Source of the DNA: Nocardia ninae NBRC 108245 | Lineage (GTDB): Bacteria; Actinomycetota; Actinomycetes; Mycobacteriales; Mycobacteriaceae | Assembly: GCF_007990755.1 (NCBI RefSeq) | Contig: NZ_BJXA01000032.1 | Location: 28,988 to 92,987 of the forward strand | Length of the DNA stretch: 64,000 nt | Reading direction: 5' to 3' | Shown here: piece by piece, positions 15,801 through 64,000 of the stretch | How the letters are laid out: the number at the start of each line of letters is the position of its first letter | Position numbering within the stretch: the first letter of the stretch is position 1 | The notes under the pieces: generated by a model | What the model was told of the DNA's origin: nothing | The model's input: only the letters and a program-made list of their open reading frames with translations | The model's database searches: none | Position numbers and translations under genes: made by a program

Positions 15801-16118
15801 ATGGCAGGACAGCTCGAAGCGAACGAAATCCTCATCGAGAAGTTCGCACAAAACGCCAGGGATCGTCACGCTGACCTGATGAAGGCGATCACCCTGCTGG
15901 ATAAGAAGTCGGACGACACGACCATGACCTGGCAGGGCCAGGCACGGGCGGCGTTCGATGCGCTGATGGACAACTACTTCGCCCAGGCGCGCAAGCTGAA
16001 CGACACGCTGGACCAGACCGCCGACAAGCTCAGCAAGGCGGGTAAGTCCTTCGCGGCTCAGGACGAGCAGTTCGCCCAGCAGGTGGCACAGCAGGCCTCC
16101 AGCCTGAACCTGCCCTGA
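15801..16118 (+). CDS. esxU: WXG100 protein, EsxU-like (CFP-10 side)
   Basis: This 105-residue helical hairpin protein has the turn motif WQG in TMTWQGQARAAFD. M. tuberculosis EsxU (Rv3445c) is also 105 residues and precedes the 100-residue EsxT, as here. It should pair with the next protein and be exported by the ESX-4 machine. The C-terminus (FAQQVAQQASSLNLP) has no clear YxxxD/E secretion signal; a Phe occupies the likely Tyr position. ATG 15801 follows AAGGAG at a good distance; an upstream in-frame ATG at 15768 lacks this. The esx pair faces eccC here, whereas in mycobacteria it is co-directional with it. Confidence 0.85.
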   Translation: MAGQLEANEILIEKFAQNARDRHADLMKAITLLDKKSDDTTMTWQGQARAAFDALMDNYFAQARKLNDTLDQTADKLSKAGKSFAAQDEQFAQQVAQQASSLNLP

Positions 16119-16158
16119 TCGCTCAGCCGAACCACCAGATACCAAGGAGAAGCTCCAG

Positions 16159-16461
16159 ATGGTAGCAAACGACCCAAGCACAATTTCCTCCAACTTCGGC
16201 GCGGTCGAGGCTGGCGCGCAGTCCATCGTGGCCGAAGCGCGGAACATCACGGCCATGCTCGAGGATTTCCACAAGCAGGTCACCGACTTCGTGACCAACT
16301 ACTGGAAGGGTGACGCCAACGAGGCCTTCGCTCAGCTCCAGTCGCAGTGGAACACCAGCGTCACCCAGCTGAACGCCACGCTGGAGACCGCCGGTCGGGC
16401 TGTCAGCAGCGGTAACACCGATCTGCAGGCCACCGACACCAGCTTGGCAAACCTCTTCTGA
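16159..16461 (+). CDS. esxT: WXG100 protein, EsxT-like (ESAT-6 side)
   Basis: This 100-residue protein has the WKG turn motif in TNYWKGDANEAFAQLQ between two predicted amphipathic helices; the family length is 95-105. It follows esxU by 40 bases with its own AAGGAG ribosome site. It is the predicted heterodimer partner of EsxU and an ESX-4 substrate. The C-terminus ends LANLF without a YxxxD/E motif. A strong hairpin terminator follows at 16477-16517. Confidence 0.86.
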   Translation: MVANDPSTISSNFGAVEAGAQSIVAEARNITAMLEDFHKQVTDFVTNYWKGDANEAFAQLQSQWNTSVTQLNATLETAGRAVSSGNTDLQATDTSLANLF

Positions 16462-16476
16462 GATCCTGTCTCGGCC

Positions 16477-16517
16477 AATTCGGGCCCCCGGCAAGCATAT
16501 TGCCGGGGGCCCGAATT
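16477..16517. terminator. Perfect 18-bp stem hairpin between esxT and Rv3446c-like gene
   Basis: The arms AATTCGGGCCCCCGGCAA and TTGCCGGGGGCCCGAATT are exactly complementary around a 5-base loop. The hairpin lies between two convergent genes (stops at 16461 and 16551), so it can end transcription from both sides. It has no long T tract, as is common in high-GC actinobacteria. Confidence 0.82.
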
Positions 16518-16550
16518 ATGTGAACTGCCGCAGTGCTACCGCACCAGAAT

Positions 16551-18008
16551 TCACGGAATCACGCGGACCGAACTACCGAAGGTCTCGCACGTAGTCGAGA
16601 GCGCCTGCCAATTGTTGTCGGCATATTGGCAGCCGATGCTGACCTGAATTCCATACTCCAGCAGCACATGCCAGCGGACAGTAGAACCGTCACCGGGCCG
16701 TTCGGTATACGCGAGAGTGGATCGTCCCCCGTAGACGACATCGCGTTTGAGCTCGGACATCACCCCGGCCGGCCGTTGCTTCATCTGCGTCTCGAGCCGC
16801 GCCGCAACCTGCTCATAGCTCGACCCCGGCGCTACCGGCGTTTGCGTCACTGTGACACGTAGCCGGGCACCATCGTCCGGGGACAGCTCGACCCGGGACC
16901 TACCGCTGGTGTCGGGAGCCGACGCCATATGCCAACCAGCCGGCACCTGAAAACGAATGCGCCCATACGTTTCCGGCCCGATGGCAACAGTGCTGCTAGG
17001 CGGGCCGGCGGTACTGCTCGGCACCGATTCGCTACTCGGCGCCGAGGTGCCAGGCGCGGCAGTCGGACCGTCATCGGGTCCATTCAGCAGCACAACCCCG
17101 CCGACGATAGCGGCACCGACAACGACAATCGCAGCAACAGCCGCGCTCACATAACCGAGCCCGTTGCGCCGAGGCTGTTGCGCCGCAGCACGTTCGCGCA
17201 GCGGCTGCATCCATTCGGTCTGCGGCAGCGCGGCCGGCAACTCCGGTTGCTGGATCGGTTCGGTCTGGTGCCCGCGGATCAGATCGGGCCCGGTCAGCGC
17301 CCGCAGCGCGACACCCGGTCCACACCGCTGCTGCACGGCCGCGCGAAGTACATCGAGTTTCGCCGCATCGGTGACACCCACCGACTGCGCCAGATCGGCA
17401 GGCTGACCATCGAGCAGCCGGTCGAGCAGCGCGCACAGGGTGGTGAAGCCGCTGGATTCCGGCAGTATCTCGGCGAGCGCGAGAGTTGGCGCATGTTCAC
17501 ACGATTCGACGTGTACACCCTGATGGCTGCGGATGACCGTGCTGGCCGTGGTGGTGAGCGCACCGAATTCCAGCACCAATGTGCGCCGACTGTGGCTGGT
17601 GCCCTCGTCCGACGCGACGGCCCGCACCGCCAACTCCTCGAACACCACGTCCGTGGTGAACCGCCGAGCCGCCTGGTCGAGCACGGAACGACGCGACGCA
17701 CCCCATTCCGTCGGACAGATCACCGTGATCCGCTCGCACGGCGCGCTGACGCGCAAATTCTCCAACACGGCGCCGAACACCGCGACCAGACCGTCGACCA
17801 CGGACGGAACGCGCGGCAGCAACGCGACGGCCTCGGCGGGCACGTACTGCACCACGGAACTCACCTGTGTCGGCGGGGTCAGCGACTCCCCGACCACCAG
17901 GTCGAACCCGTTGCTGCCCAACACGATCGACGGTGCCACGTCCCAGTGCGTCGTCGCGCCACGCGCCCAGACGCGCGTGTCGGTGACCACCAGCTCGACG
18001 GTAGCCAT
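16551..18008 (-). CDS. Type VII secretion-associated protein, Rv3446c family
   Basis: The 485-residue product has an N-terminal half (1-280) resembling a divergent actin/Hsp70-like fold. It has one membrane helix at about 287-312 (GYVSAAVAAIVVVGAAIVGG), then a Ser/Pro-rich linker and an external domain of about 140 residues. That external domain (RIRFQVPAGWHM, then LEYGIQVSIGCQY and a terminal Cys) matches the C-terminal domain of the Rv3446c family. In mycobacteria this gene follows eccC4 in ESX-4, as here. Its ATG overlaps the eccC stop (ATGA, 18005-18008), so the two are translated together. The biochemical role is unknown; it probably bridges cytoplasm and cell wall next to the secretion pore. 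Confidence 0.85.
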   Translation of the reverse strand: MATVELVVTDTRVWARGATTHWDVAPSIVLGSNGFDLVVGESLTPPTQVSSVVQYVPAEAVALLPRVPSVVDGLVAVFGAVLENLRVSAPCERITVICPTEWGASRRSVLDQAARRFTTDVVFEELAVRAVASDEGTSHSRRTLVLEFGALTTTASTVIRSHQGVHVESCEHAPTLALAEILPESSGFTTLCALLDRLLDGQPADLAQSVGVTDAAKLDVLRAAVQQRCGPGVALRALTGPDLIRGHQTEPIQQPELPAALPQTEWMQPLRERAAAQQPRRNGLGYVSAAVAAIVVVGAAIVGGVVLLNGPDDGPTAAPGTSAPSSESVPSSTAGPPSSTVAIGPETYGRIRFQVPAGWHMASAPDTSGRSRVELSPDDGARLRVTVTQTPVAPGSSYEQVAARLETQMKQRPAGVMSELKRDVVYGGRSTLAYTERPGDGSTVRWHVLLEYGIQVSIGCQYADNNWQALSTTCETFGSSVRVIP

Positions 18009-21000
18009 CAGGTTTGCGGCGGCATCCAGGCCGTCTGGATCAGACCCTCACTGTTGCGCGTGACGTACGTGCCGCGGCCCGGCGGCATCGGGCTCGGCCG
18101 CGTCGTCCCCATCAGCACACCCTCGTCCCGGCTGCAGCTCATGATCAGGCCGGCCGACCCGAGGTCCTTCATCCTGGCCAGCGTCGCCTCGAACATGGCA
18201 CGTCCCGCGCCACCGGAGCGCCGCGCGATGATCAGATGGAAGCCGAGGTCACGGGCGTGCGGCAGGTGTTCCACCAACGCCTGGACCGGATTACCGCTGG
18301 AGGTGGCCACCAGGTCGTAGTCGTCGACGACGACGTACAGCTCGGGGCCGCTCCACCATGAGCGATCCTTCAGCTGCTGTGGCGTCACGTCGGGACCTGG
18401 CGTCCGGTTGCTGACGTACGCGGCGAGATCGGCCATGTTCTGCGTGAACTGGGGTGCGGTCGAGCCGTAGCCGGCGAGGTAACCCTCCGGCACCGTGCCG
18501 AGCATCGAGCGTCGGTAGTCGCCCATGATGATCCGCGCCTGGTCCGGGGTGTTCGATGCGGCGATGCCCTCGACGATCGACCGCAGCAGCGTCGTCTTTC
18601 CCGACTCGGTGTCGCCGATGACGAGGAAGTGCGGACTCACCGTGAAGTCGAGGTAGACCGGGGCCAGCTCGGCTTCGTTGATACCGATCGGGATTCGCAT
18701 GCACTTGACCGACTGATCGACCTGCGACGGCCAGTCGCCCGCGAGGTAGAGCAGCTGCTCGCGCGGCAGCTCCTCGGGCAGCATGCGCACCGGCGGGGCC
18801 GGCCGGCCCGGGGTCAGGCGGGCGATGGTCGAGACCGCCTCGCCGACTGCCTGACCGATATTGGTCGGGTCCGAACTGCCATCGATCCGTGGCAGACCGG
18901 TCAGCATGTGCAGGCAGTCCGGCGTCATACCGCGGCCGGGGCGGGCCTGCGGAACCATCGAGGCGAACTTGCGGCCGAGGTCGGAATCCATCGGATCACC
19001 GAGGCGCAGTTCGATTCTGGTGGCGATCTGGTCCTTCAGCGCGGGCCGCGCCTCCGCCCACCGGTTCAGCGCGATGACGATGTGCACGCCATACGACAGA
19101 CCCTGCACCGCCAGGTTCATGATCACCTGTTCGAGCATCTCGAAGTCCTGGCGGATGGAGCCGAAGCCGTCGATCACCAGGAACACATCGCCGAACGGGT
19201 CCTCGTGCGCGCCGGTCGCGGCCGGGCTGCTGGACGGATCCATCGCGCGCAGCCTGCGGAACTCGGTCATCGACTCGATGCCGAGCTGCCGGAATCGGGC
19301 CTCGCGCTGCCGCACGATGGTGGTCATCTCGGCGACGGTGCGCCGGACCTGGTCCGCGTCCAATCGGCTTGCGACGGAACCGACATGCGGCAGGCCCTGC
19401 AGGCTCATCAGTGTGCCGCCACCGAAGTCGAGGCAGTAGAACTGCACCTGCTCGGCGGTGTGCGTCAGCGACATGGCCATGATCAGCGTGCGCAGCGCGG
19501 TCGACTTACCGGACTGCGGGCCACCGACGACGGCGACGTTGCCGCGCGCACCGGACAGGTCGACCACCAGCGGGTCGCGCCGCTGGTCGTACGGCCGGTC
19601 GACGATGCCGATCGGGGCGCGCAGCGTGGCCACCGCGGAGTATTCGCCGGTGAGGATGGAGCGCGGGATCAGCTGGTCCAGCGTCGGTGCCTCGTCCAGT
19701 GGCGGCAGCCAGATCTCGTGCGCGGGACGGCCGTGGCCGTTGATCCGCGAGACCAGCATGTGCACGTTGGAGACCTGCTCGCCGTCCTCGGCCTGCTGGT
19801 CGGCGGCGCTGGGCTCGGCGGGCAGCGGAACCCGGTCCACCGCACGGAAATCCACGTGGGTGGCGGTGAACGGCCGGGCCTTGATGTCGATCTCGCCAGA
19901 CTGGGTGGCGACGGTGATGTCGCGCTGCGAACCGCCGCCGACGTAAGGGCCGGAGACGTAGGACGCCTGGAACCGCACGATCTCGCCGGAGTCCGACTTC
20001 AGGTAACCGCCACCGGGATTGTTCGGCAGGTTGTAGGCGTCGGGCACGCCGAGCACCTGACGGGATTCGTTGGCGGAGAAGGTCTTCAAGCCGATCCGGT
20101 AGGACAGATGGCTCTCCAGGCCCTTCAGCTTTCCCTCTTCCAGGCGCTGCGAGGCGAGCAGCAGGTGCACGTGCAGCGAGCGGCCGAGCCGGCCGATCAT
20201 CACGAACAGTTCCGCGAAATCCGGGTGCTGGGTGAGCAGTTCGGAGAACTCGTCGAGCACCACGAACAGGGCGGGCAGCGGATCCAGGTCGGCGCCTGCC
20301 GCACGGGCCTTCTCGTATTCGGAGACGTTGGCGAAGTTGCCCGCGGCGCGCAGTACCTCCTGACGGCGGTTCATCTCACCGGCCAGCGCGTCCTTCATGC
20401 GGTCGACGAGGTCGGCTTCTTCTTCCAGGTTGGTGATGACGGCCGCGACATGCGGCACGCTGTCGAGTCCGAGGAAGGTCGCACCACCCTTGAAGTCGAC
20501 GAGCACCAGGTTGAGCTGGTCCGGCGAATGGGTGGCGAGCAAGCTGAGCACCAGGGTGCGCAGGAACTCCGACTTGCCGGAACCTGTTGCGCCGATGCAC
20601 AACCCGTGCGGGCCCATGCCGTTCTCGGCGGCTTCCTTGATATCGAGTTCGACCGGCAGGCCGTCGGCGCCGACGCCGAACGGCACCCGAAGCCGCTCCC
20701 GGCCGTAGCGCGGCCGCCAGGCGTGTTCGGGGTTGAACGAGCCGATGTCGCCGAGGCCCATCAGCTGGCTCCAGGTCGAAATGACCTCGGAGTCATCGGT
20801 TTCCACGTCGCTGCTGCGCTGGGTCGCCGCCCGGTACGGCGCGAGCCTGCGGGCCACCTGCTGCGCCTGCTGCGGGCTGATCCGGTCGATCAGCGCGAAG
20901 CGCTCCTGGTTACCGGTCGCGCCGCGGCCGACGCACTCACCGTTCTCCACGATCATCTTGATGCCGCGCGAGACCGCCAGTCGCGGTGCGTACCCGCACA

Positions 21001-22042
21001 GGTCGATGATGGTGACGCCCTCGTAGCCGGATTCGCGCAGCTGATCTTCCTCGGCTTCCAGCAGTCCGCCGTCCACGATGATGACGATGTGCACCATGTT
21101 CGCGTTGGCAGGCTGGTTACGCGAGTAGCGGACCCGGTTGCCGAGCAGCGGCTGCAGCCCGGCCATCGCCTCCCGGATCGAGCCGTAGAACATGCGCTGG
21201 GTGCCGATGCCGTCCTGCGCGTCGGGGTGCTGGGTGTGCGGGAGCCACTTGGTCCACTCCCACTCCCGCGCGGTGTCCGGGCCGCAGACCACCGCGACGA
21301 GCACCTGGTCCGGCGCCTGGAACATGCACAGCTGCAACAACATCGCGCGGGTCATGTCCCTGGCCTCGACCCGGTCGCCGTCCAGCGCGATGGTCGCGAA
21401 ACCCTTGACCGCGATCGCCGTCGGCAGGTCGGGCACGGTCGAGTGCGCGCGCACGAAGCGGCGCAGCGAGACGGCCGCGATCGGCTCGAGCTCTTCGACC
21501 GGTCCGGTCTCCGGCGCGACCAGGCGGGTCGCCAGCCGCTGGCCGCCGACGCCGATGCGGGCGTGGCAGAAATCCTTGTCGCCCGCGCGGCGCTCCCACA
21601 TGCGGCTGGTGCCGGCGAGCATCCAGATCAGACCCGGTTCGGGGTGGCTCCACTCGACCGAGGCGCGCTGCTGGGTGGCCGTGTTGTCCACGTCCCGGCG
21701 TACCTGGTCGAGGTAGCGCAGATAGTCCTTGCGATCTTCGTTCGCCTCGGCGGCCTTGGCCCCCTTGCCGCCGCCCTGACCTGCGAACATGCCGACCATC
21801 GAGAACATCATCATGAGCGGGAACATCATGCTCATCGGGTTCGATCCGATGCCGCCGCCCTGGGTGAACAGCAGCGCCATCATGCCGACCATGCCGATGA
21901 TCATCACGACCGGCATCAGCTTCATCAGCAGATTGCCGGGGGTCACCCGGGGGATCTCGGGCGGCGGCTGCAGCGTGACCTCACCGCCGGGCGAGCGCGG
22001 CATCTCTCTACGTGCGCGGCGCTGGAACCGTACGGTACTCAT
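18008..22042 (-). CDS. eccC: ESX-4 type VII secretion ATPase EccC (unsplit)
   Basis: This 1344-residue protein is the motor of the ESX pore. Two membrane helices lie at about 40-90 in a Met-rich region, followed by a linker and three FtsK/SpoIIIE-type ATPase domains. The P-loops are ATGSGKSE (about residue 483), GPQSGKST (about 840) and DTESGKTT (about 1142). EccC is a single chain, as in ESX-2, 3, 4 and 5, not split as in ESX-1. The first ATPase carries LVDFKGGATF and VVLDEFSELL (Walker B), which fit the regulatory active domain. The C-terminal domains are expected to recognise Esx substrates. It is divergent from eccD with a shared 239-base promoter region that holds a 13-bp inverted repeat. 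Confidence 0.95.
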   Translation of the reverse strand: MSTVRFQRRARREMPRSPGGEVTLQPPPEIPRVTPGNLLMKLMPVVMIIGMVGMMALLFTQGGGIGSNPMSMMFPLMMMFSMVGMFAGQGGGKGAKAAEANEDRKDYLRYLDQVRRDVDNTATQQRASVEWSHPEPGLIWMLAGTSRMWERRAGDKDFCHARIGVGGQRLATRLVAPETGPVEELEPIAAVSLRRFVRAHSTVPDLPTAIAVKGFATIALDGDRVEARDMTRAMLLQLCMFQAPDQVLVAVVCGPDTAREWEWTKWLPHTQHPDAQDGIGTQRMFYGSIREAMAGLQPLLGNRVRYSRNQPANANMVHIVIIVDGGLLEAEEDQLRESGYEGVTIIDLCGYAPRLAVSRGIKMIVENGECVGRGATGNQERFALIDRISPQQAQQVARRLAPYRAATQRSSDVETDDSEVISTWSQLMGLGDIGSFNPEHAWRPRYGRERLRVPFGVGADGLPVELDIKEAAENGMGPHGLCIGATGSGKSEFLRTLVLSLLATHSPDQLNLVLVDFKGGATFLGLDSVPHVAAVITNLEEEADLVDRMKDALAGEMNRRQEVLRAAGNFANVSEYEKARAAGADLDPLPALFVVLDEFSELLTQHPDFAELFVMIGRLGRSLHVHLLLASQRLEEGKLKGLESHLSYRIGLKTFSANESRQVLGVPDAYNLPNNPGGGYLKSDSGEIVRFQASYVSGPYVGGGSQRDITVATQSGEIDIKARPFTATHVDFRAVDRVPLPAEPSAADQQAEDGEQVSNVHMLVSRINGHGRPAHEIWLPPLDEAPTLDQLIPRSILTGEYSAVATLRAPIGIVDRPYDQRRDPLVVDLSGARGNVAVVGGPQSGKSTALRTLIMAMSLTHTAEQVQFYCLDFGGGTLMSLQGLPHVGSVASRLDADQVRRTVAEMTTIVRQREARFRQLGIESMTEFRRLRAMDPSSSPAATGAHEDPFGDVFLVIDGFGSIRQDFEMLEQVIMNLAVQGLSYGVHIVIALNRWAEARPALKDQIATRIELRLGDPMDSDLGRKFASMVPQARPGRGMTPDCLHMLTGLPRIDGSSDPTNIGQAVGEAVSTIARLTPGRPAPPVRMLPEELPREQLLYLAGDWPSQVDQSVKCMRIPIGINEAELAPVYLDFTVSPHFLVIGDTESGKTTLLRSIVEGIAASNTPDQARIIMGDYRRSMLGTVPEGYLAGYGSTAPQFTQNMADLAAYVSNRTPGPDVTPQQLKDRSWWSGPELYVVVDDYDLVATSSGNPVQALVEHLPHARDLGFHLIIARRSGGAGRAMFEATLARMKDLGSAGLIMSCSRDEGVLMGTTRPSPMPPGRGTYVTRNSEGLIQTAWMPPQT

Positions 22043-22281: not shown

Positions 22282-23748
22282 TTGACGCACGCGCGACTTG
22301 ACCACATCGATGAAAACTCCGCGCACGGCATCGTCCGCGCACCAGATCTCGCCCGGGTGACGATTCTCGCCAAACACACCCAGGTGGATATGGCGATCCC
22401 GGTCGACGTGCCTGTTGCCCTGGTGATCCCGAGTGTCGTCGACATGGTCGCACAACACAGCCGCAGCAACGACTTCGACAACGAAGGCGAGCGCTTCGAG
22501 CCGGCCGAGTGGGTGCTCGCCCGAATCGGTCATCCCCCCTTCTCCAATTCGCTGAGCCTCGGCGAGCACGGTGTCCGCGACGGCGAGCTGCTCATGCTGG
22601 AGAGCGCCTCGCATACCGCACCGACGCCGCTGTTCGACGACATCATGTACAACGTCGCGATCGCCGACACCGACCATTACCGCAGTTGGACCCCGAAGGT
22701 CGCGCGGATCACCGGCTCGGTGCTCGCCGCGCTCACCATGCTCGTCGGCTGTCTCGGTCTGCTGCTCTCCCCCGATGCCCTGCCCTCCTGGGTCAGCGGT
22801 TCGGTCGCGCTCGCCGTCGCGATCCTGCTCGTCATCGCGTCCATGGTGCTCAGCCGGATGTACGGCGACACCTCGACCGCACTCGTGCTCGGCGGCTGCG
22901 CGCTGCCGCCCGCGTTGACCGCGGGCATGCTCTACGTGCCCGATCACTACGGCTGGCCGCACATCCTGCTCGGCGCCGTATTGTTCGGCGCCACCGCGGT
23001 TTTGGCGTGGCGGGTCAGCGGCGTCGGCCTCGCGCTGTTCATCGGCGCGGCCACCCTCGCGCTCTACGCGGTGCCTGCCGCCCTGGTCGGGATGCTCACC
23101 GGGCAGCCGGAACGCGCGATCGGCGCGGGCGCCGCGGCCCTCGGACTCGCCGGACTCGCCCTGGCACCCCGGATCTCCATGCTGCTGGCCAAACTGCCAC
23201 TGCCGCCGGTCCCCTCGCCCGGCACCCCGATCGACCCGACCGAAGACGACCCCGACGATCACCGCGCGCTGCCCACCATGGAAGCACTGCGGGTGAAGTC
23301 CGAGCGGGCCCGCATGTACCTGGCCGGCCTGGTCGCCGCCACCACCCTGGTCACCGTCGTCGGCGCGCTCGCCAGCACCGACCCGGAAGCCGAGAACCCG
23401 TACTGGCAAGGCATCGCGCTCGCCCTGGTCTGCGCGGTGGTCCTGATGTTCCGCAGCCGCACCTACGCGGGCGCCGAACAAGCCGTCGTACTCATCGCGG
23501 GTGGCGCGGGCATCGTGCTGATCATGCTGGTAGGAGCCGGTTTCGCGATGGACCAGCCCCTCGCCGTCTTCGGCGCCGCCATGGTCATCCTCATCTCAGC
23601 CCTGATCCTCGGCATCATCATCCCGAACCAGTCGGCCACCCCGCCGATGCGCCGCGGCGTCGAACTCCTCGAATACGCTTTCGTAGCCGCCGTCCTCCCC
23701 CTGGTCTTCTGGGTGGCCAGCCTCTACTCCCTCGTCCGCGGGCTGTGA
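22282..23748 (+). CDS. eccD: ESX-4 membrane pore subunit EccD
   Basis: The 488-residue product has a ubiquitin-like N-terminal domain at about 20-110 (VTILAKHTQVDMAIP, ending VRDGELLMLES). From about 145 to the C-terminus there are some eleven hydrophobic segments, the EccD pattern. EccD forms the inner membrane vestibule of the ESX pore. The start is TTG at 22282, supported by GGGGGAAG just upstream; no ATG lies at a sensible place. The stop overlaps the GTG of mycP (GTGA at 23745-23748), giving coupled translation of pore and protease. Confidence 0.93.
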   Translation: MTHARLDHIDENSAHGIVRAPDLARVTILAKHTQVDMAIPVDVPVALVIPSVVDMVAQHSRSNDFDNEGERFEPAEWVLARIGHPPFSNSLSLGEHGVRDGELLMLESASHTAPTPLFDDIMYNVAIADTDHYRSWTPKVARITGSVLAALTMLVGCLGLLLSPDALPSWVSGSVALAVAILLVIASMVLSRMYGDTSTALVLGGCALPPALTAGMLYVPDHYGWPHILLGAVLFGATAVLAWRVSGVGLALFIGAATLALYAVPAALVGMLTGQPERAIGAGAAALGLAGLALAPRISMLLAKLPLPPVPSPGTPIDPTEDDPDDHRALPTMEALRVKSERARMYLAGLVAATTLVTVVGALASTDPEAENPYWQGIALALVCAVVLMFRSRTYAGAEQAVVLIAGGAGIVLIMLVGAGFAMDQPLAVFGAAMVILISALILGIIIPNQSATPPMRRGVELLEYAFVAAVLPLVFWVASLYSLVRGL

Positions 23749-25160: not shown

Positions 25161-25369
25161 TCCAGAAGGGCCTCAGCGAATTCCGCCGCGGCCCGTCTGA
25201 TCAATCGATCTGGTTGATACTTTTCTGGATCCGAGCGTGTCCCGCCGACGCAGAAGGCTCCGATCGGCGACTCGCGGGTTCGACCGAGCAATGGCCGTGG
25301 GGCATGTAGCGTCTGCACAGCGAACTGCGGTACATAAGGTGCCGGATCCGATCAATGCAGGTAGTCCCC

Positions 25370-26170
25370 ATGAAGCAGCAAGAACAAGCAGCCGACGGCA
25401 CGCCCGATACCGAGGGGTTGAGCCGGCGCGAGGCGTGGGAGCAGGCCACCGGCGTGCCGATGATGCTGCTCGCCGTGCTGTTTCTCGCCGTCTACGCCTG
25501 GTATGTGCTGGATACCGGCGCCTCGCCACAGCTGGACGCGTGGCTCAGCCGGGTCGACATTGCGATCTGGGCTTTGTTCGCGATCGACTTCGGGACGCGA
25601 TTCGCGTTGTCCACTCGACGGTGGGAGTTCCTGCGCAACCATCCCATGGAGTTGCTGATCGTGCTGATTCCGCCGTTTCGCCCGCTACGGCTGGTGCGAG
25701 CGGCGGTGCTGGTGCTCGGCACCCTGAACCGGCAATCGCTGACTCAGCGGTCTCGCCTGTCGGTGTTCGTCGGAACCAGCTCGATACTGGTGCTGTTCCT
25801 GTGCAGCCTGGCCTTCTTCGACGCCGAGTACGGCGCGGAAGGCAGCAAGGTGCTGAGCTTCGGTGACGCGCTGTGGTGGTCGGCGGTCTCGGTCACCACG
25901 GTCGGTTACGGCGACGTCTACCCAGTCACCGTGGAAGGTCGACTGATCTCCCTGGTGCTGATGACCTTCGGCATCGGCCTGATCTCCTTCGCCATCGGCA
26001 CCACGACCAGCTGGGTGATCGATCAGCTGAAGACCGTCGAGGAGACCGCCGACCGCACGGATCGGGAGATCGGTGTGTTGGTCGAGGAGCTCCGTTCGTT
26101 GCGCGCCGAAGTTGCCGCGTTGCAGAACAACTCCGACGGCTCGAATACGGTTGTCGCGGACGGCCGTTAG
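25370..26170 (+). CDS. Voltage-gated-type potassium channel
   Basis: The 266-residue product has six hydrophobic segments. It has an S4-like helix with spaced arginines (FRPLRLVRAAVLVLG), a pore loop with selectivity filter TTVGYGD, and a long final helix. A short cytoplasmic coiled-coil tail (VEELRSLRAEVAALQ) follows. This is the architecture of small bacterial Kv channels, which work as tetramers in the cytoplasmic membrane. There are two nearby in-frame ATGs (25355 and 25370); the second has a weak AGGT and is preferred. The gene lies between mycP and eccB, which are neighbours in the mycobacterial ESX-4 locus, and its stop is 5 bases from the eccB stop. I know of no role for a channel in type VII secretion. 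Confidence 0.88.
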   Translation: MKQQEQAADGTPDTEGLSRREAWEQATGVPMMLLAVLFLAVYAWYVLDTGASPQLDAWLSRVDIAIWALFAIDFGTRFALSTRRWEFLRNHPMELLIVLIPPFRPLRLVRAAVLVLGTLNRQSLTQRSRLSVFVGTSSILVLFLCSLAFFDAEYGAEGSKVLSFGDALWWSAVSVTTVGYGDVYPVTVEGRLISLVLMTFGIGLISFAIGTTTSWVIDQLKTVEETADRTDREIGVLVEELRSLRAEVAALQNNSDGSNTVVADGR

Positions 26171-45498: not shown

Positions 45499-45873
<375 letters not shown>

Positions 45874-46204: not shown

Positions 46205-46224
46205 GTCCGTCCAATCTTGTTGTG

Positions 46225-46242: not shown

Positions 46243-46249
46243 ACAGTTT

Positions 46250-46273: not shown

Positions 46274-46387
46274 GTCTGTTGTGCCGCTCTGTCGAGCGAC
46301 GGTTCTGCACGGCCAGGCGAACTTCTCACCTCACCGAAGTGAATCGACCCGGGCACACTCCGCTGAGGAGAGATCGCCCGATTCGAT

Positions 46388-56846: not shown

Positions 56847-58256
56847 CTAGGGGTCGTATTCGGCGTCGATCTCCCTGCGTCTGCGGCGGAACGGAATCGC
56901 CACCGCGATACCGATCGCCAGGGCGGTCAGGCAGGTCAGTGAGCCGATCACCGCGATCCGGCGCGGCCGAGGGTCGGGACCGGGTGGGACGACCGGCGCG
57001 GCGATCAGCCGACCGACATCGGCTCCGGCGTTCACCGGACGATCGGGCAGTTGCGCGGTCAGCGCGGCGAGCGGGTCGATCAGGCCCGCGCCGATCGCGT
57101 CGTCGTGGCCGGTGCCCGGCGCCTGCGCGGTGCGCACGATGCGATCGATCACCTGCTGGGCATCGAGATGCGGGAATCGGGAGCGCACCAGGGCGGCCAG
57201 CCCGGCGACATACGGCGCCGCGAAACTGGTGCCGTCCACCGGACGGATGCCCTCGGTGGTCTGCACGCCGTTGACCAGGCCGACGCCGCCCGGCTTGCTG
57301 TCCAGCGACACGATATTGCGGCCGATCGCGCTGACCCCGATCCACGGTCCGTGCAGCGACAGATCCGACGGCTTACCGTCGGCGTCCACCGAGCCCACCG
57401 CGAGCACATACGGCGAGAACCAGGCCGGGCTGGCGACGGTGGTGACCGCGCCCCATCCGGTGCCCTCGTTCTGGTTCTTGCATGGGCCATCGGACTCGAC
57501 GTTGCCCGCCGCGGCCACCACGACGACATTGCGGTCGTAGGCGTACTTCACCGCGGCACCGAGCGAGGAGTCGGCGGTATCGGAACCGGCTGGGCTGCAG
57601 GCCACTTCGGAGATGTTGATGACGGTGGCGCCGAGGTCGACCGCGCGCACCACGGCCGCCGCCAGGGTGAGCACGCTGCCGTAGCCGTCGGCGCGGATGG
57701 CACCGGGCGCCCGGTCGCCCGCGCGGTCCTTCTTCTCGTAGGCGAGGCTCAGCTGCCGGATGGTGAGGATCTCGGCCTCGGGCGCCACCCCGGCGAACGC
57801 GTCGCCCGGACTCGGCTGGGCCGCGATGATGCCTGCCACCAGCGTGCCGTGCCCGTCGCAGTCGACGCTGCCGTCGGTGTCGGAGACATAGTCGCCGCCG
57901 GTCTGCAGGAACGGCAATCGCGGATGCCGGTTCACTCCGGTATCGATCACCGCGACTTTCTGCCCGGCGCCCCTGCTGAACTGCCAGGCCGAGGGCAACT
58001 CGAGGACCCGCTGCGCGATCGGCGGCTCGTTCGGCGGGGGGCCGGTGAGCGCGGGCTCGGCGCACAGGTCGCGCTGCTCGGTCGGCTCCAACGGCGCGGG
58101 GCGACCGCTCAACGCCTGTGCGATGGCTAGCGCACCCGGATCGATGACGGGCCGCGAGATCGCCGAGGCGGGCGGCGCCGGCGCGCCCACCAAGCCGATC
58201 ACCGCGGCGACGCAGGCCATCCGCAACAGGCTGCGACGGAAGGCGCTAGATCTCAT
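56847..58256 (-). CDS. mycP: Mycosin MycP of the second ESX locus
   Basis: The 469-residue product has a signal peptide (1-32), catalytic Asp105 (IDTGV), His136 (DGHGT), Asn252 (AAGN) and Ser344 (GTSFAAP), then a Pro-rich linker and C-terminal membrane helix (about 438-460) with a basic tail. All catalytic residues are present. ATG 58256 is preceded by a run of tiny overlapping ORFs from the eccD stop. The stop is 48 bases from eccC. Confidence 0.94.
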   Translation of the reverse strand: MRSSAFRRSLLRMACVAAVIGLVGAPAPPASAISRPVIDPGALAIAQALSGRPAPLEPTEQRDLCAEPALTGPPPNEPPIAQRVLELPSAWQFSRGAGQKVAVIDTGVNRHPRLPFLQTGGDYVSDTDGSVDCDGHGTLVAGIIAAQPSPGDAFAGVAPEAEILTIRQLSLAYEKKDRAGDRAPGAIRADGYGSVLTLAAAVVRAVDLGATVINISEVACSPAGSDTADSSLGAAVKYAYDRNVVVVAAAGNVESDGPCKNQNEGTGWGAVTTVASPAWFSPYVLAVGSVDADGKPSDLSLHGPWIGVSAIGRNIVSLDSKPGGVGLVNGVQTTEGIRPVDGTSFAAPYVAGLAALVRSRFPHLDAQQVIDRIVRTAQAPGTGHDDAIGAGLIDPLAALTAQLPDRPVNAGADVGRLIAAPVVPPGPDPRPRRIAVIGSLTCLTALAIGIAVAIPFRRRRREIDAEYDP

Positions 58257-58298
58257 CGCTCGCTGCGCTCACGAGGTCTCATGGCTGCCTGCGCTCAT
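58246..58298 (-). other. Chain of overlapping mini-ORFs between eccD and mycP
   Basis: Reading the minus strand, the eccD TGA overlaps an ATG (58298) of a 9-codon ORF. Its TGA overlaps a GTG (58272) of an 8-codon ORF, whose stop lies within mycP after the mycP ATG (58256). The two short ORFs are imperfect copies of each other (GAGCGCAG-GCAGCCATGAGA and GAGCGCAG-CGAGCGATGAGA). This could relay ribosomes from eccD to mycP. Confidence 0.4.
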
Positions 58299-59770
58299 AT
58301 GTTCCTGGCCATCGAGTAGACGTTCATGATCCAGAGCACCAGCGGGATCAGCGCGATGATCAGCAGGTATTCGAAGATCTCGATCATCCGCCTCGTCACC
58401 GGGGTGACCTCGATGTGCGGTCCGATCACACCGAAGCCGACGGTGCCCGCCGCGAAGGCGACCAGCAGGCCGACGCCGAACATCTGGAAGTCCGTGTCGC
58501 CCATGGCCGTACCGAGGATCAGCGCCACGAAGATGACGATGCCGCCTGCGATCAGCGTCGCAGCCTGGGTGAGATCGGCGAAGGATCGGCCGCGCAGGCA
58601 CAGGATGATTCCGGTGACGACGGCCAGCGTGAGGCCCTGCCAGCGGGCGGCGCCCAGCGGGTCCGCCGCGCCGAACGCGCCGATCACCGCGCTCAACGTG
58701 CACGCGATGATCAGGCCGGATTGGTACTGATTGGCCGCACGGGCCCGCTCGCCGAGACCGGCCGCCGAGGGCAGTGCGGTGGCGCCGATCGCGCCGATGC
58801 CCTCGATGGTCGGGCGCTGTTCGTGATCGGCCGGGTCGATCGCCGCACCCGCGGTGGGCACCGGCGGGATCGGCAGCCGGGCCAGGCCCGCGGCCATCCG
58901 CGGCACCATCGACAGCATCGCGACGCCGACGACCACCAGGGCAGCGGACAGCTTCGGCAGGCCCGGATGCCAGATGAGATACACCGCGGCGGAGATACCA
59001 CCGATCACGCTGGCCGCGGCCGCGGCCGAGAACAAGGTGGCGCCGCTACCGATGAGCCGATAGCCGAGCACGGCGGCCACCAGTGTCACCGAACAGGCGA
59101 GCAGCAGATGCGCACTGCCGAGCGCGCCGGGCACGAAAAGCGCGGCACCACCGAACAAGAGCAGCAGGCCGTCCAGCGACAGCCAGGTGGCGGTCGTCGG
59201 ATCCAGGTATTTGCGGGCGGCGAAGCCCGCGGCGACGAAGGCGCCGATACCGGCGGCCGACAGCACGAACGCGGGGGCTATCGGATCGCCGTGCCCGCGC
59301 GAGATCACCAGCAGCGTCAGCGCGGTGAGCACCGTCAGCACGGAGGTGACCAGGCCCATCCAGCGCGCGGAGTTGCCGGTCCAGCTGCGGAATTCCTCGG
59401 TGGTGAGCCGGGATACCGCGTCGATCACGTCATCGAAGAGCGCGGGCGCTTCCTTCGCGGTGACCGAGCGGAGCACCAGCAGTTCGCCGTCGTGCACGTC
59501 CGCGTCGTTGAGCGTGCGGCTCGGCGCGAAGGCCTCTTGACCGATGCGCGCCAGGGTCCAGTGCTGGGCCTGCAGCGGCACCGAGTCGTCTTCGGCGTCG
59601 ACCTGTTCGGGATTGCGCGATTCGATCAACGCCACCAGGTCGCCGATGAAGCTGGCGATCGGGACGGTTGCGGGCAGCCCGACATCGAGCTGAGTGTTGC
59701 CGCCGATGACGGATACTCGACTCAGCTCGGGCTCAGCGGCACGTGTGCCACTGGTTGGTGACTCGATCAA
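58295..59770 (-). CDS. eccD: EccD of the second ESX locus
   Basis: The 491-residue product has an N-terminal ubiquitin-like domain (about 18-105, RVSVIGGNTQLDVGLPATVP, ending HDGELLVL), then about eleven hydrophobic segments from residue 138 to the end. The start is TTG 59770 with GGGGTC upstream; another start closer to the fold is possible. It is divergent from eccA across 240 bases. Confidence 0.92.
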   Translation of the reverse strand: MIESPTSGTRAAEPELSRVSVIGGNTQLDVGLPATVPIASFIGDLVALIESRNPEQVDAEDDSVPLQAQHWTLARIGQEAFAPSRTLNDADVHDGELLVLRSVTAKEAPALFDDVIDAVSRLTTEEFRSWTGNSARWMGLVTSVLTVLTALTLLVISRGHGDPIAPAFVLSAAGIGAFVAAGFAARKYLDPTTATWLSLDGLLLLFGGAALFVPGALGSAHLLLACSVTLVAAVLGYRLIGSGATLFSAAAAASVIGGISAAVYLIWHPGLPKLSAALVVVGVAMLSMVPRMAAGLARLPIPPVPTAGAAIDPADHEQRPTIEGIGAIGATALPSAAGLGERARAANQYQSGLIIACTLSAVIGAFGAADPLGAARWQGLTLAVVTGIILCLRGRSFADLTQAATLIAGGIVIFVALILGTAMGDTDFQMFGVGLLVAFAAGTVGFGVIGPHIEVTPVTRRMIEIFEYLLIIALIPLVLWIMNVYSMARNI

Positions 59771-60010: not shown

Positions 60011-61843
60011 ATGACCGGCAATCGCCAAGCACAACGCGCCTTCGACGCCGGAATTCTGTCGCTCGGACTGTCCATCGAAGGGCAGGAATCCGCGCGCGAC
60101 CTCGAGTACGCGAAGCTGGCCTTCCAGCGCGCCACCGAGTGGGACCCCACCATGTGCGACGCGTGGCTCGGCCGCGCGGCCGCCGGTGAGCTCACCAAGG
60201 ACGTCTTGTTCAACATGCACAAGACCAGCACCAGCACGCTGTACCGGGAGCAGCGCAGGCTCGGACTGCGGCCGCGCGAGCTCGCGGGCCGGTTCCTGCC
60301 CGGTCTGTACATCGACTACCCGCTGGCCAGCTACACCGAGATCTGGCTCGCCTGGGCCGCGCAACTCATCGCAGACAAGGAGTACGACGAGGCCGAGCGG
60401 GTGCTCAACGACCTCGACGCGCACCGCAGGTCCCAGCTGAGCGACCCGGATCGCGAGATCGATAACCGCATCTGCGCCTATGTCCGCGGCGTGCTGCACT
60501 ACAACACCCAGCGCTGGCCCGATGTGATGACGGTGCTGGCCGGGTCGGCCGAGTGGGACGACCCGTATCTCGCGGCTGGTGCGAACGTCATGGTGGGCAC
60601 CGCGTGCGCGCAGCTCGGCTTGTTCGGTGAGGCAATCCGGCGGATGGAACAGGCCGAGGCGGGCCCGATTCCGGCGGCCCGGTCCACCGCCATGTTCTGC
60701 CGCGGCCTGTGCCTGCGCGAATCCGGCAACGAAGAAGTAGCGCAGGGCCTGTTCGAGAAGGTGTACTCGCAGGCGCCGGATTTCGAGGCGAACACCACCG
60801 CGATGCGCGACCGCACCTACCGGATCAGCGTCACCTCCCGGGAAACGATCGACGCCCGCACCGACAAGTGGGATCCGGCCTCCGCGCCGTCGATGAAGCA
60901 GCTCGAGCAGGCCGAGACCGAGGACCGGGCCAAGAAGATCCTGGCCGAGGCCCGCGCCGAACTCGACTCGCAGATCGGTTTGACCTCGGTGAAGACCCAG
61001 GTGGCCAAGCTGCAGTCGAGCGCGCAGATGGCCAAGATCCGCGCCGAGAAGGGCCTGGCCGCCGGAGCGCGCGGTCAGCACCTGGCCTTCACCGGTCCGC
61101 CCGGCACCGGTAAGACCACCATCGCCCGCGTGGTCGCCAAGATCTATTGCGGCGTCGGCATCTTGAAGACCGACAAGGTGGTCGAGGCCAAGCGCGTCGA
61201 CTTCGTCGCCCAGCACCTCGGCGGCACCGCGGTGAAGTCGGAGGCGCTGATCGACAGCGCGATGGACGGCGTGCTGTTCATCGACGAGGCCTACACCCTG
61301 ATCCAGACGGGTCTGCAAGGCGGCGACTCGTTCGGCCGTGAGGCCGTCGACACCCTGCTGGCCCGGATGGAGAACGACCGCGACCGGCTGGTGGTGATCA
61401 TCGCCGGCTACGACGGCGAGATCGATCGCCTGCTCGCCGCCAACGACGGTCTGGCATCACGGTTCTCCAAGCGAGTGCAGTTCCCGTCGTACACACCCGA
61501 CGAGCTCGGCGAGATCGGCAAGGTCATCGCGAACAAGCGGGATTCGGAGCTGTCCGACGAGGCGCACGAGCTGCTCGTCAAGGCCTGCACCCAGCTCTAC
61601 TCGATGCAGAGCACCGACCAGAGCGGTCAGCCGCGCCGCGGCGTCGACCTCGCGGGTAACGGCCGGTTCATCCGCAACGTCATCGAGGCCGCCGAGGAAG
61701 AGCGCGAGTTCCGCCTGGCCAACGACGAGACGCTGGACCTGGCCAATATCGACGAGTCGATGCTGATGCGCATCGAGGCGCCGGATATGCATACCGCGCT
61801 CACGGGCATTCTCGCCTCGCTGAACGTCGGCTTCACCGGCTGA
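60011..61843 (+). CDS. eccA: EccA, cytosolic AAA+ ATPase of the second ESX locus
   Basis: The 610-residue product has an N-terminal TPR-like helical domain (about 1-280) and a CbxX/CfxQ-type AAA+ domain (about 310-600) with Walker A GPPGTGKTT (362-370), Walker B VLFIDEAYT (about 420) and arginine-rich sensor regions (LASRFSKRV). EccA works with export of PE/PPE-type substrates in ESX-1, 3 and 5. ESX-4 normally lacks EccA, so this gene sets the second locus apart. It is the only plus-strand gene between eccD and eccB. Confidence 0.95.
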   Translation: MTGNRQAQRAFDAGILSLGLSIEGQESARDLEYAKLAFQRATEWDPTMCDAWLGRAAAGELTKDVLFNMHKTSTSTLYREQRRLGLRPRELAGRFLPGLYIDYPLASYTEIWLAWAAQLIADKEYDEAERVLNDLDAHRRSQLSDPDREIDNRICAYVRGVLHYNTQRWPDVMTVLAGSAEWDDPYLAAGANVMVGTACAQLGLFGEAIRRMEQAEAGPIPAARSTAMFCRGLCLRESGNEEVAQGLFEKVYSQAPDFEANTTAMRDRTYRISVTSRETIDARTDKWDPASAPSMKQLEQAETEDRAKKILAEARAELDSQIGLTSVKTQVAKLQSSAQMAKIRAEKGLAAGARGQHLAFTGPPGTGKTTIARVVAKIYCGVGILKTDKVVEAKRVDFVAQHLGGTAVKSEALIDSAMDGVLFIDEAYTLIQTGLQGGDSFGREAVDTLLARMENDRDRLVVIIAGYDGEIDRLLAANDGLASRFSKRVQFPSYTPDELGEIGKVIANKRDSELSDEAHELLVKACTQLYSMQSTDQSGQPRRGVDLAGNGRFIRNVIEAAEEEREFRLANDETLDLANIDESMLMRIEAPDMHTALTGILASLNVGFTG

Positions 61844-62023
61844 CCACAGTAAGGCCGAGCGCCGCGCGGGCTGAGCGTTACGCCGGGCAACTGCACGGCC
61901 GGATGCTCCACGAGCCCGCGTTCAGCGCGTTACGCACCGAGCGAGCACCCACCACCACGGAACCAGTTGCTTGGGCTGAGCGCTTACTCTCCTGGCGCAC
62001 AACGGGACGCAGGCGCTCCACCG

Positions 62024-62055
62024 GGCCCAGCGCCCGATGAGCTGAGCGCTGGGCC
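62024..62055. terminator. Hairpin between eccA and eccB
   Basis: GGCCCAGCGC and GCGCTGGGCC pair perfectly around a 12-base loop. It lies between convergent genes (stops at 61843 and 62071). The 227-base gap otherwise shows no gene, only several GCTGAGCG-like words. Confidence 0.55.
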
Positions 62056-62070
62056 TGCTGACCTCGCCGA

Positions 62071-63585
62071 CTATTGTGGCGGCTCGAGCGGCAGCTGATC
62101 GCGTGCCGTGAGCGCTTCCTTCGCGGACAAGTTCGCGCCGGGCACCATCTGGCCGATGATGGCCCACGGCGCGAGGCGCGGGGTGTCCCCCAGGCCGAGC
62201 ACGCCTGCGGTCTCCATATCCGGAACGCCGTAGCGCACACCGTTGTCGGCGACGTAGAACAGACTGCCGCGCCGCGGGCTACCGGGACCCATGCCGGTCA
62301 CCTGAACGAACTCGCCGCTGCCCGGCGGGACGTACACCGCGTCCACCCGGTCGCCGGTGCCATCGGACGTGGCCAGCGCGACGGTCTTCGCCTTTTCCGC
62401 GATCGGCACGCGCACGCCGGCCAGCAGGGTGATCGAGGCGCGTTCGGCCGGGCCGTCACCCGCGTCGGTCTTGCGGTTGGCCGGGGCGGTGCCCGGCGTC
62501 TTGGACCACGCGACACAGGCCACGGGGGCGTCTTCGGCGTTCAGGATCTTCGGGGTCTCGACCGGAAAGTCGTTGACCGGCAACACATGTACCACCGGCA
62601 CCCGATCGAGCACGTCCGGCGGCATGGTCGGGATCTCGCTCATCCCGTGCGAGTCGGCGAACCGGATCACCTGCGCGGTGAACGGGCTCACCGGCTGCAG
62701 CCCGTCGGCGAGCACGGCGTACAGCTGCGGCTTGCCGTCACCGACATCGCGCACCGAAATCACGCCGCCCACCGGGATTTTCGACAACGGGCCCGGCCCC
62801 GGCTGGCCCGCCTGCGGGATCTGCGGGGCCGTGAGCGCGGGGACTTCCGTTGTGGCGCCGAGCATTCCGGTGCCGATCGGGCGCGGGCGGTGCATTGTCA
62901 GGTTCAGCGCGCGGATCAGCACCGAGTTGGCGGGGTCGACCTCGGCCCGCTTGCCGTCGTAGACCAGGTAGGTCTTGTCGCTGCGCTTCACCAGCAGCGC
63001 CTCGTCCTTGGTGACCGTGCGGATCCGATCGCCGAGGGCGGGGCGGCCCGCGATGACGGTGGTGGTGCCGCCGGTGGCCGAGGCCGCGCTGCCGCCCTGC
63101 GACAGCGGGATCGTCTCGCACAGCGACCATTCCGAGCGGGAGCCCTGCGACGACCCGGGCAGGGCGCTCGGCGCACCGGGGATGCCGACCATCGGGCCGC
63201 GCGGCATGCTGTTGAGCTTGCTGTCCTTCACGCCGTGCGGCTCGGCATTGCTGCCGGTGATCAGCCGGGCGGAGGCGAGGTTCAGGACGGGGTGCAGCGT
63301 CTTGTTGCCGTTGTCGGACTCCACGACCACATACAGCGCGCCGCTCTGCTTACCCGACACGATCAGCGCGTCACCGATGGCGCCCTGCGGCCGCAGGAAG
63401 CTCAGAATGGCCGCACCGGCGATGATGAGTATCCCGAGCACCGCGCCGACCCACAGCGAGCGCACCTGGGACCGCATCGGATCGTGCAGCATCCGCACAT
63501 CGCGCCGCACCAGCGCGTGATCCAGTCGGCGCAACAGGAATCGGTACCCGTTGACCTGGGCTCGGGTAGTCAGCTGTGCCGGCAC
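62071..63585 (-). CDS. eccB: EccB of the second ESX locus
   Basis: The 504-residue product has signature YRFLLRRLDHALVRRDVRML at 14-33, one membrane helix at about 43-63, and a periplasmic beta domain with conserved cysteines (WSLCET and PVACVAW). The C-terminus is PWAIIGQMVPGANLSAKEAL, as in other EccB proteins. It is divergent from eccE across 128 bases. Confidence 0.94.
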   Translation of the reverse strand: MPAQLTTRAQVNGYRFLLRRLDHALVRRDVRMLHDPMRSQVRSLWVGAVLGILIIAGAAILSFLRPQGAIGDALIVSGKQSGALYVVVESDNGNKTLHPVLNLASARLITGSNAEPHGVKDSKLNSMPRGPMVGIPGAPSALPGSSQGSRSEWSLCETIPLSQGGSAASATGGTTTVIAGRPALGDRIRTVTKDEALLVKRSDKTYLVYDGKRAEVDPANSVLIRALNLTMHRPRPIGTGMLGATTEVPALTAPQIPQAGQPGPGPLSKIPVGGVISVRDVGDGKPQLYAVLADGLQPVSPFTAQVIRFADSHGMSEIPTMPPDVLDRVPVVHVLPVNDFPVETPKILNAEDAPVACVAWSKTPGTAPANRKTDAGDGPAERASITLLAGVRVPIAEKAKTVALATSDGTGDRVDAVYVPPGSGEFVQVTGMGPGSPRRGSLFYVADNGVRYGVPDMETAGVLGLGDTPRLAPWAIIGQMVPGANLSAKEALTARDQLPLEPPQ

Positions 63586-63713
63586 AAGGTCTCCATCGAA
63601 CTGTCGAGAACCATCTTCATCGACACGGTACCGTAATTCCAGGACGGCCCTGAACCGATGAATTCATGGCCCATCGGCGGTGGCCGAACAGGTGGCAGAC
63701 AGGGACTTACGCG

Positions 63714-64000
63714 GTGACGACAAGTGTGAACGAGACCAGGCCCGCCGGGGCGACCGAAGCGGAAGGCACCGGCGCCTCGACGCGGAATGCCGGCCGGCCC
63801 TCGGCCTATGACACCCTGCGTGACCCCGAGTTCTGGCTCTTCCGTATCTATCCGCTGCGGGTGCTCGTTCCGGTGGTGGTGCTGGCCGCGACGCTGGTCT
63901 GGATCATCCTCGCCACCACGGAGTCGCTGTGGGGTGCGATCGGTGCCGGCGCCGCGCTCGCGGTGCTGCTGCTGATCCCGATGCGGGGCCGCACCCCGGC
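63714..64000 (+). CDS. eccE: EccE of the second ESX locus (5' part; cut by window end)
   Basis: From GTG 63714 the frame is open to the window end (95 codons). The sequence has a short hydrophilic start, then DPEFWLFRIYPLRVLVPVVV and a second hydrophobic stretch (WGAIGAGAALAVLLLIPM), the two adjacent membrane helices of EccE. It is divergent from eccB exactly as eccE is in the first locus. Identity is based on this plan and position, because only the N-terminus is visible. The 128-base gap before it holds the shared promoter and a palindromic ACGGTACCGT. Confidence 0.75.
   Translation, partial: MTTSVNETRPAGATEAEGTGASTRNAGRPSAYDTLRDPEFWLFRIYPLRVLVPVVVLAATLVWIILATTESLWGAIGAGAALAVLLLIPMRGRTP

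Follow-up and report, generated by a model that had tools for sequence, protein, structure and literature searches.

What does it mean that one bacterial chromosome carries two ESX loci, one on either side of its ribosomal alpha operon, and how are the two related to each other and to the ESX-1, -3 and -5 systems of mycobacteria? The question is raised by a 64,000-nucleotide stretch of the Nocardia ninae NBRC 108245 genome (here called the window; positions 28988 to 92987 of contig NZ_BJXA01000032.1), in which a first locus (locus 1) lies on the truA side of the operon and a second (locus 2) on the infA side. The genome (G000) is a 9.7 Mb draft, and window base 64000 is also the end of the contig (C32, 92987 bases). 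Protein families were assigned with NCBIfam cut-offs and Pfam profiles, coordinates were taken from gene calls, and both bear out the flanking arrangement that a sequence-only reading of the window had described. Our best explanation, to which we give a probability of about 0.8, is that locus 1 is an ESX-4 system and locus 2 an ESX-4EVOL system (EVOL below), two types that separated anciently.

ESX-1, -3 and -5 hold a central place in the biology of mycobacteria, and the published model puts the evolution of their lineage on plasmids. A chromosomal site where ESX-4 lies next to the sister lineage of ESX-1/3/5, and where other genera retain EVOL genes too, makes the choice between plasmid and chromosome directly testable. 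Both types found here are already known. ESX-4EVOL has been described in Nocardia, Tsukamurella, Segniliparus and some mycobacteria (Newton-Foot 2016, PMC4791881), and the idea of an intermediate between ESX-4 and the later systems was already in print under that name. What is new is that EVOL genes keep to the alpha-operon neighbourhood. The string “ribosom” does not occur in the main text of that paper, and among the titles and beginnings of abstracts listed by literature searches, a search scope without bioRxiv and most subscription journals, none makes this point.

An ESX-4 locus and an EVOL locus

Locus 1 (15801-29426) is a complete ESX-4 system including eccE, and all its ESX genes score above the NCBIfam cut-offs. 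It has the ESX-4 gene set of eccB, eccC, eccD, mycP, a WXG100 pair and an Rv3446c-like gene, and a profile scan of window positions 15000-30000 found no eccA, PE, PPE or espG in the cluster. The ESX-4 loci of two other genera, g30 and g14 (L131, L141), share its order, eccE<eccB>mycP<eccD<eccC>Rv3446>esx>esx>, beside truA. (Here and below, G-codes are genomes and L-codes loci or stretches in the comparison set; g10, g12, g14, g15, g16, g18-g21, g23-g31 and g34 are codes for genera of comparison genomes.) Locus 1 has eccE, whereas none was found in the Mycobacterium ESX-4 loci L085 and L109, and it differs from ESX-4 in an extra ion-channel gene.

Locus 2 has the EVOL core of eccB, eccC, eccD and mycP with eccA, espI and the first part of eccE. 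Its EccC, MycP, EccD, EccA and EccB are all above family cut-offs; the eccE fragment has no NCBIfam match on its own. The sequence-only reading, which described both loci as complete-looking, was right for locus 1, but locus 2 ends inside eccE at the contig end. The same reading had correctly recognised the additional eccA and EspI-like ATPase (TIGR03922, PF21545 and CbiA/AAA_31 matches) and the divergence of eccB (62071-63585, minus) from eccE (63666, plus). The strand pattern alternates (eccC< mycP< eccD< eccA> eccB< eccE>), unlike the ESX-1/2/3/5 order in L106 and L107, where eccA-eccB-eccC...eccD-mycP run one way. The sequence motifs are intact: three Walker A motifs in each of the two EccC proteins, Asp, His and Ser in the mycosins of both loci, Walker A with a Walker B-like stretch in EccA, and KGGVGKTT in EspI. 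The gene at 47003-50224 we take to be espI, from its position; the conserved C-terminal part of its product is 67-72% identical to the truA-side espI of other genera, compared with 36-44% for ESX-1-type espI.

Locus 2 resembles the published ESX-4EVOL (PMC4791881) in its core, eccA, eccE and espI, in the espG, pe and ppe genes of its relatives, and in branching with similar loci; it differs in being interrupted before the esx/PE/PPE part. That part can be seen in relatives. In G008 (L028), a close relative with an EccA 95% identical, the genes after eccE are two of esx type and then EspG, PPE and PE (PF06013, PF14011, PF00823, PF00934; one of the two esx genes is under the Pfam cut-off). In G189 a single contig carries the whole arrangement (L119, L120, L161), with a few other genes interspersed: PE-PPE-espG-esx-esx-eccE-eccB-eccA-eccD-mycP-eccC-gnat-gntR-DUF4254-espI, then the alpha operon, [infA...rpoA-rplQ-truA], and then eccE-eccB-mycP-eccD-eccC-Rv3446-esx-esx. 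Another described variant, ESX-4-bis, has in the published account (PMC7478629) a two-eccD gene order that matches our Mycobacterium EVOL loci L083 and L117. In our analysis the mycobacterial copies lie at a distance from the alpha operon, and the published account reports one copy on an integrative and conjugative element (ICE); the likeness is one of gene order and does not imply one clade with EVOL.

Phylogeny of the two loci

We built trees of EccB (88 rows), of EccC (57 rows) and of concatenated EccB, EccC, EccD and MycP (49 hand-picked sets, 2734 columns). Of the 88 EccB rows, the concatenation does not include loci that were fast or partial (L103, L110, L111, L114, L135, L144, L147, L148, L149), nor many others that were near duplicates or lacked core genes; the latter include distinct EVOL loci (L100 of g10, L072 and L074 of Gordonia, L113 of G270). 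Comparator labels ESX-1, ESX-3, ESX-5 and ESX-1AN were assigned in this analysis from gene order rather than from named records. The EVOL label of comparators reflects gene content, plus one named T. tyrosinosolvens record, and the name Tsukamurella for genus code g37 reflects closeness to one named record.

In all three trees locus 1 belongs to an ESX-4 clade that also contains loci of g23, g27, g30 and further genera, and locus 2 belongs to the EVOL clade. Support in the concatenation is 100/99 for EVOL, 100/100 for ESX-1/3/5 with the Nocardia ESX-1AN-like loci, and 99/98 for both together; locus 2 is within the first of these groups and outside the second. A C20 mixture run on 36 loci (13 fewer than the concatenation) recovered the same three groups with support of 98, 99 and 100, and a topology placing ESX-1/3/5 outside ESX-4 plus EVOL was rejected (p 1e-4). 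Locus 2 is a member of the sister group of ESX-1/3/5, not their ancestor. The suggestion that it is intermediate between ESX-4 and the later systems survives insofar as it is ESX-4-like with EccA and EspI and falls in none of the sampled ESX-1/3/5 types, but its relation to these is better stated as that of a sister clade.

The two loci had also been proposed to be each other's sisters. They are not: locus 1 clusters with the ESX-4 loci, and locus 2 with the EVOL loci, of other genera. A topology with a single Nocardia clade of both locus types was rejected (log-likelihood difference 1315; approximately unbiased (AU) test, p 3e-62), so the duplication predates the genus. The two loci are ancient paralogues of separate types.

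Why, then, are their EccC proteins so similar? Identity between the two is 84-92% per 50 residues over positions 451-650, around ATPase 1, and 56% overall. When Nocardia ESX-4 is compared with Nocardia EVOL, ATPase 1 identity is 0.82 for pairs from one genome (n=4) and 0.81 for pairs from two genomes (n=24), and either type compared with ESX-1/3/5 gives only ~0.53. Since ATPase 1 is as similar between genomes as within them, the similarity is no evidence for a lineage-private duplication; rather, EVOL retains an ESX-4-like ATPase 1 from which ESX-1/3/5 have diverged. The similarity is family-wide conservation. Thus, the near-identity noted from sequence is real and the loci are old paralogues, but the similarity is general and not evidence of duplication. 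Gene conversion in this region was considered and rejected by the same within- versus between-genome comparison.

Two individual placements differ between trees. In the EccC-only tree, mycobacterial ESX-4 groups with ESX-1/3/5 and long branches were flagged; the concatenation contradicts this grouping and we do not rely on it. The alpha-operon locus of g16 groups with ESX-1/3/5 in the EccB tree (83), and with EVOL in the EccC tree and the concatenation, where the fork is weak. For accessory proteins, the EspG encoded at truA sites belongs to the EVOL clade (22 rows, 92/96), and truA-site EspI groups with Nocardia and Mycobacterium EVOL EspI, not with ESX-1 EspI (30 rows, 87/88; long branches flagged). 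Besides weak or short matches, six loci were skipped by hand in the EspG tree and seven in the EspI tree.

EVOL genes keep to the alpha-operon neighbourhood

We surveyed gene positions in 48 hand-picked genomes of the family; rpoA, EccB genes and an EspI-like match were each found in 48/48. In 14 of 15 Nocardia genomes, eccB lies on both sides of rpoA, at 7-17 kb on the truA side and 18-46 kb on the infA side; the exception, G397, has only espI near rpoA. Copy type was checked by tree or gene order as EVOL in nine genomes (G000, G082, G011, G012, G099, G189, G306, G336, G353) and as ESX-4 in four (G000, G011, G189, G306), the remaining Nocardia copies being typed by position.

EVOL-type espI lies less than 20 kb from rpoA in 32 of the 48 genomes, representing seven genus codes. 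In Nocardia it is on the infA side (15/15); in Gordonia (8/9), g19 (3/3), g26 (2/2), g16 (2/2), g15 (1/1) and g24 (1/1) it is on the truA side. The best espI match was typed in 35/48 genomes; in the other 13, where it has 24-67% identity, the matches listed were checked by eye and none among them is within 60 kb of rpoA. A search of contigs with an EspI profile kept 80 of at least 593 stretches in at least 273 relatives; these are mostly unrelated ParA-type proteins matching short motifs such as KGGVGKTT, with hardly any named ESX loci among them.

Other EVOL genes accompany espI or stand in its place. Tsukamurella has PE-PPE-EspG-esx-esx-eccE-eccB beside truA in three of four genomes, G116 being the exception, and the named record of T. 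tyrosinosolvens shows it as well; these sites are without this espI type, and mycP, eccD and eccC come next in G103 and G141, with eccC distant in G070. Both g16 genomes have PE-PPE-esx-esx-eccB-eccC at truA, and no EspG was found there. In these Tsukamurella (3/4) and g16 (2/2) genomes EVOL occupies the ESX-4 site beside truA. PE, PPE, EspG and esx are at truA in all three g19 genomes, PE and PPE in g24, whose stretch goes no further, and PE, PPE and esx, without espI, in Gordonia G300; EspG is present in one g26 and a weak PE match in one Gordonia. As for ESX-4 itself, its order is found beside truA in Mycobacterium, g12, g14, g18, g25, g28 and g30. In Mycobacterium, eccB is on the truA side in 6/6, and the three loci inspected (L085, L109, L269) are ESX-4 by gene order.

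A dispersed EVOL system in Gordonia bronchialis

Genome G278 is Gordonia bronchialis DSM 43247, as identified by 8000 plasmid bases that are 100% identical to NC_013442.1. It has a single EccB, at 3.52 Mb; EccC is matched over its full length once, at 1.76 Mb, and EccA is matched strongly once, at 0.99 Mb. Its EccB, EccC, EccD and MycP fall inside EVOL in the concatenated tree. G. bronchialis has a single, dispersed system of EVOL type, with eccA, eccC and eccB 0.8 to 2.5 Mb apart. A table in the 2016 paper lists this species as ESX-4 (PMC4791881), and a statement in a 2024 paper has ESX-4 as the only type VII secretion system of nonmycobacterial Actinomycetota, including Nocardia and Gordonia (PMC11217815). 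Our analysis corrects the published ESX-4 listing. The core blocks of G278, g19 and g24 retain the ESX-4 order mycP<eccD<eccC>Rv3446>.

The ESX genes of G278, g19 and g24 are dispersed: eccB and eccE form an EVOL-type pair, mycP-eccD-eccC-Rv3446 form a block and eccA stands alone, and these parts are widely separated or on other contigs. All three have espI at the alpha operon, where g19 and g24 also have PE/PPE.

Origin of the EVOL lineage

How did EVOL come to lie beside the alpha operon? With EVOL at the same operon in several genera, a chromosomal origin there is the easiest explanation, and the shared position suggests this over reinsertion from plasmids. We consider the chances about even that a chromosomal duplication of ESX-4 beside the alpha operon gave rise to the EVOL/ESX-1/3/5 lineage. 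Both copies would then persist around the operon in Nocardia, as EVOL - alpha - ESX-4 in the same eccE<eccB>...eccC> orientation; Tsukamurella and g16 would have kept only the EVOL copy beside truA; and Gordonia and its kin would have kept EVOL espI at the operon, some genera with PE/PPE/EspG/esx, their core genes having relocated. The orientation would fit a tandem duplication of the alpha operon together with ESX, followed by different losses. More tentatively, EVOL and ESX-1/2/3/5 alike may have begun as such a chromosomal tandem duplication of ESX-4 with the operon, with Nocardia preserving the product, Tsukamurella and g16 reflecting reciprocal loss, and plasmids acquiring the systems later, in reverse of the published order.

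Several observations weigh against a chromosomal origin at this site. The EVOL tree conflicts with a species tree built from five alpha-operon proteins in 36 rows, several of whose deep forks are weak, and a single EVOL clade of the Gordonia group, Tsukamurella and g12 was rejected (p 0.0037). Mycobacterium EVOL-type eccA genes (G069, G270, G322, G350) are all far from rpoA; g21 eccC is ~210 kb and g23 EVOL genes are ~105-116 kb from it; the g12 and g10 drafts carry EVOL genes on contigs other than that of rpoA; and no EVOL core was found in g29 (G040). EVOL is on the infA side in Nocardia and on the truA side in the others. EspI-like ATPases also occur outside ESX loci (L179 of Antrihabitans; a ~69% second copy in Nocardia). 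Finally, an EVOL-type ESX is on a Mycobacterium arabiense plasmid, and the published account of ESX-4-bis has it on an ICE (PMC7478629). The conflict between trees means that transfer or hidden paralogy occurred, and transfer also took part in EVOL history.

The published model, in which the ESX-4EVOL paper infers a plasmid ancestor with innovation on the plasmid and repeated chromosomal reinsertion (PMC4791881), is favoured by some of these points: the tree conflict, Mycobacterium EVOL away from the operon, and the mobile elements just mentioned. We nonetheless think it improbable, if the strongest of the competing accounts. It needs independent insertions at the same operon each time, given EVOL beside the operon in several genera. 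The sole EVOL-type plasmid placed in the tree groups with Mycobacterium EVOL (100/100) and is not basal, though the trees took in just three plasmid loci (L037, L068, L114) from 101 plasmid records with an EccB match. In addition, eccE is present in the ESX-4 of Nocardia and of g10, g14, g18, g23, g27, g28, g29, g30 and g34; already in so many ESX-4 loci, it is not a plasmid novelty.

Slightly less probable again is homologous replacement, by which EVOL would have passed from genus to genus and homology with the resident ESX-4 or ribosomal genes would have directed it to the alpha-operon site. This would account for both the shared site and the tree conflict, and Tsukamurella and g16 do carry EVOL where other genera have ESX-4; in Nocardia, however, EVOL is on the infA side with ESX-4 still in place on the truA side. 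That locus 2 is an ESX-1, -3 or -5 of the usual type is very improbable: it shares eccA and an EspI-like gene with them, but its place in the tree is outside their clade and its gene order differs from that of the ESX-1-/ESX-3-like loci L084, L106, L108, L115 and L118. A recent ESX-4 duplication, within Nocardia or shortly before the genus arose, as the neighbouring loci and ATPase 1 domains 84% identical might suggest, can be dismissed almost entirely, being rejected under the model used by the AU test and by ATPase 1 domains as similar between as within genomes.

Predicted functions

Both loci encode ESX (type VII, T7SSa) export machines; the parts are identified by homology, and the transport roles are taken from mycobacterial ESX systems. 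By analogy, locus 1 would export its WXG100 pair through an EccB/C/D/E membrane complex with the mycosin MycP. The predicted cargo of locus 2 is PE/PPE and Esx pairs; EspG would serve PPE as a chaperone, EccA would be the AAA+ factor for disassembly, and the ATPase EspI would have a regulatory role.

Gene content of the window and further observations

Coordinates of the ESX genes, of the genes among them and of the alpha operon are collected in Table 1. About 12 kb of other genes separate truA from locus 1.

Table 1. Features of locus 1, the alpha operon and locus 2 (window positions).
Feature	Position	Strand	Basis
WXG100 (esx)	15801..16118	+	PF06013, TIGR03930 above cut-off
WXG100 (esx)	16159..16461	+	PF06013, TIGR03930 above cut-off
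Rv3446c-family T7SS-associated protein	16551..18008	-	TIGR03931, 145 bits (cut-off 47.6)
eccC, fused EccCa+EccCb, three Walker A motifs	18008..22042	-	TIGR03924/TIGR03925 above cut-off
eccD	22282..23748	+	TIGR03920 above cut-off
mycP	23745..25160 (23781-25160 in profile analysis)	+	TIGR03921 above cut-off; subtilase Asp, His, Ser motifs
ion-channel gene inside locus 1	25355..26170	+	PF07885
eccB	26175..27662	-	PF05108, TIGR03919
eccE	27774..29426	+	PF11203, TIGR03923
alpha operon neighbourhood: truA (41661), rplQ (42709), rpoA (43286-44344), rpsD (44447), rpsK, rpsM, infA (46388)	41661..46609	-	gene calls; profile/homology matches
espI-like MinD/ParA-type ATPase (KGGVGKTT)	47003..50224	+	CbiA/AAA_31
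DUF4254 gene	50523..51050	-	PF14063
GntR/UTRA regulator	51194..52003	+	PF00392, PF07702
GNAT acetyltransferase	52000..52638	+	PF13508
eccC, fused, three Walker A motifs	52722..56798	-	TIGR03924/TIGR03925
mycP	56847..58256	-	TIGR03921; catalytic motifs
eccD	58295..59770	-	TIGR03920
eccA (AAA+ ATPase)	60011..61843	+	TIGR03922 above cut-off, PF21545
eccB	62071..63585	-	PF05108, TIGR03919
eccE start, interrupted by contig end	63666..64000	+	EccE profile positions 1-53; 66% to eccE of L028

The ion-channel gene sits between mycP and eccB of locus 1 and has a 72% match in L120 of G189. Beside the esx genes of locus 1, window positions 7532-15410 hold a protein kinase gene interspersed with five DUF7373 genes, and relatives of two of these DUF7373 genes are near the EVOL-locus eccE in G011 (L033) and G001 (L034). 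A Ser/Thr-type protein kinase (window 11214-12809) and an FHA-domain ATP-binding cassette transporter (window 1913-4345) are also near locus 1. Between espI and eccC of locus 2, the DUF4254-GntR-GNAT trio (window 50523-52638) is conserved in Nocardia (L031, L032, L120) and retained in G397, where eccB is absent within 60 kb of rpoA. A record titled T. tyrosinosolvens “plasmid 22” (L069, NZ_LR134464.1) holds rpsM-rpsK-rpsD-rpoA-rplQ-truA and resembles a chromosome fragment.

The source genome has three EccB genes and, by PF21545, two EccA genes. The third EccB, on contig C5, is EVOL-type in the EccB tree, and the second EccA, which shares C16 with eccD and a partial mycP, probably makes up the matching set, as the comparison with G082 suggests. 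This second EVOL-like copy is split into [PE PPE espG esx esx eccE eccB] and [eccC mycP eccD eccA], halves that lie on two contigs in the source genome (L005 on C5, L027 on C16) and ~55 kb apart in G082 (L127, L128). The second EspI-like ATPase of Nocardia (~69%; G000:C21:87681-88556) is away from ESX genes, and the lone EspI-like gene of Antrihabitans (L179) is likewise outside ESX loci. Relatives also occur in Actinomadura, Streptomyces and a Corynebacterium metagenome-assembled genome (L170, L172, L173; neighbours were inspected for L170, L171, L172 and L179). Near the third eccB, L005:4366-7347 codes for a possible ESX substrate, a protein of 993 residues whose N-terminal domain is WXG100-like (PF25547).

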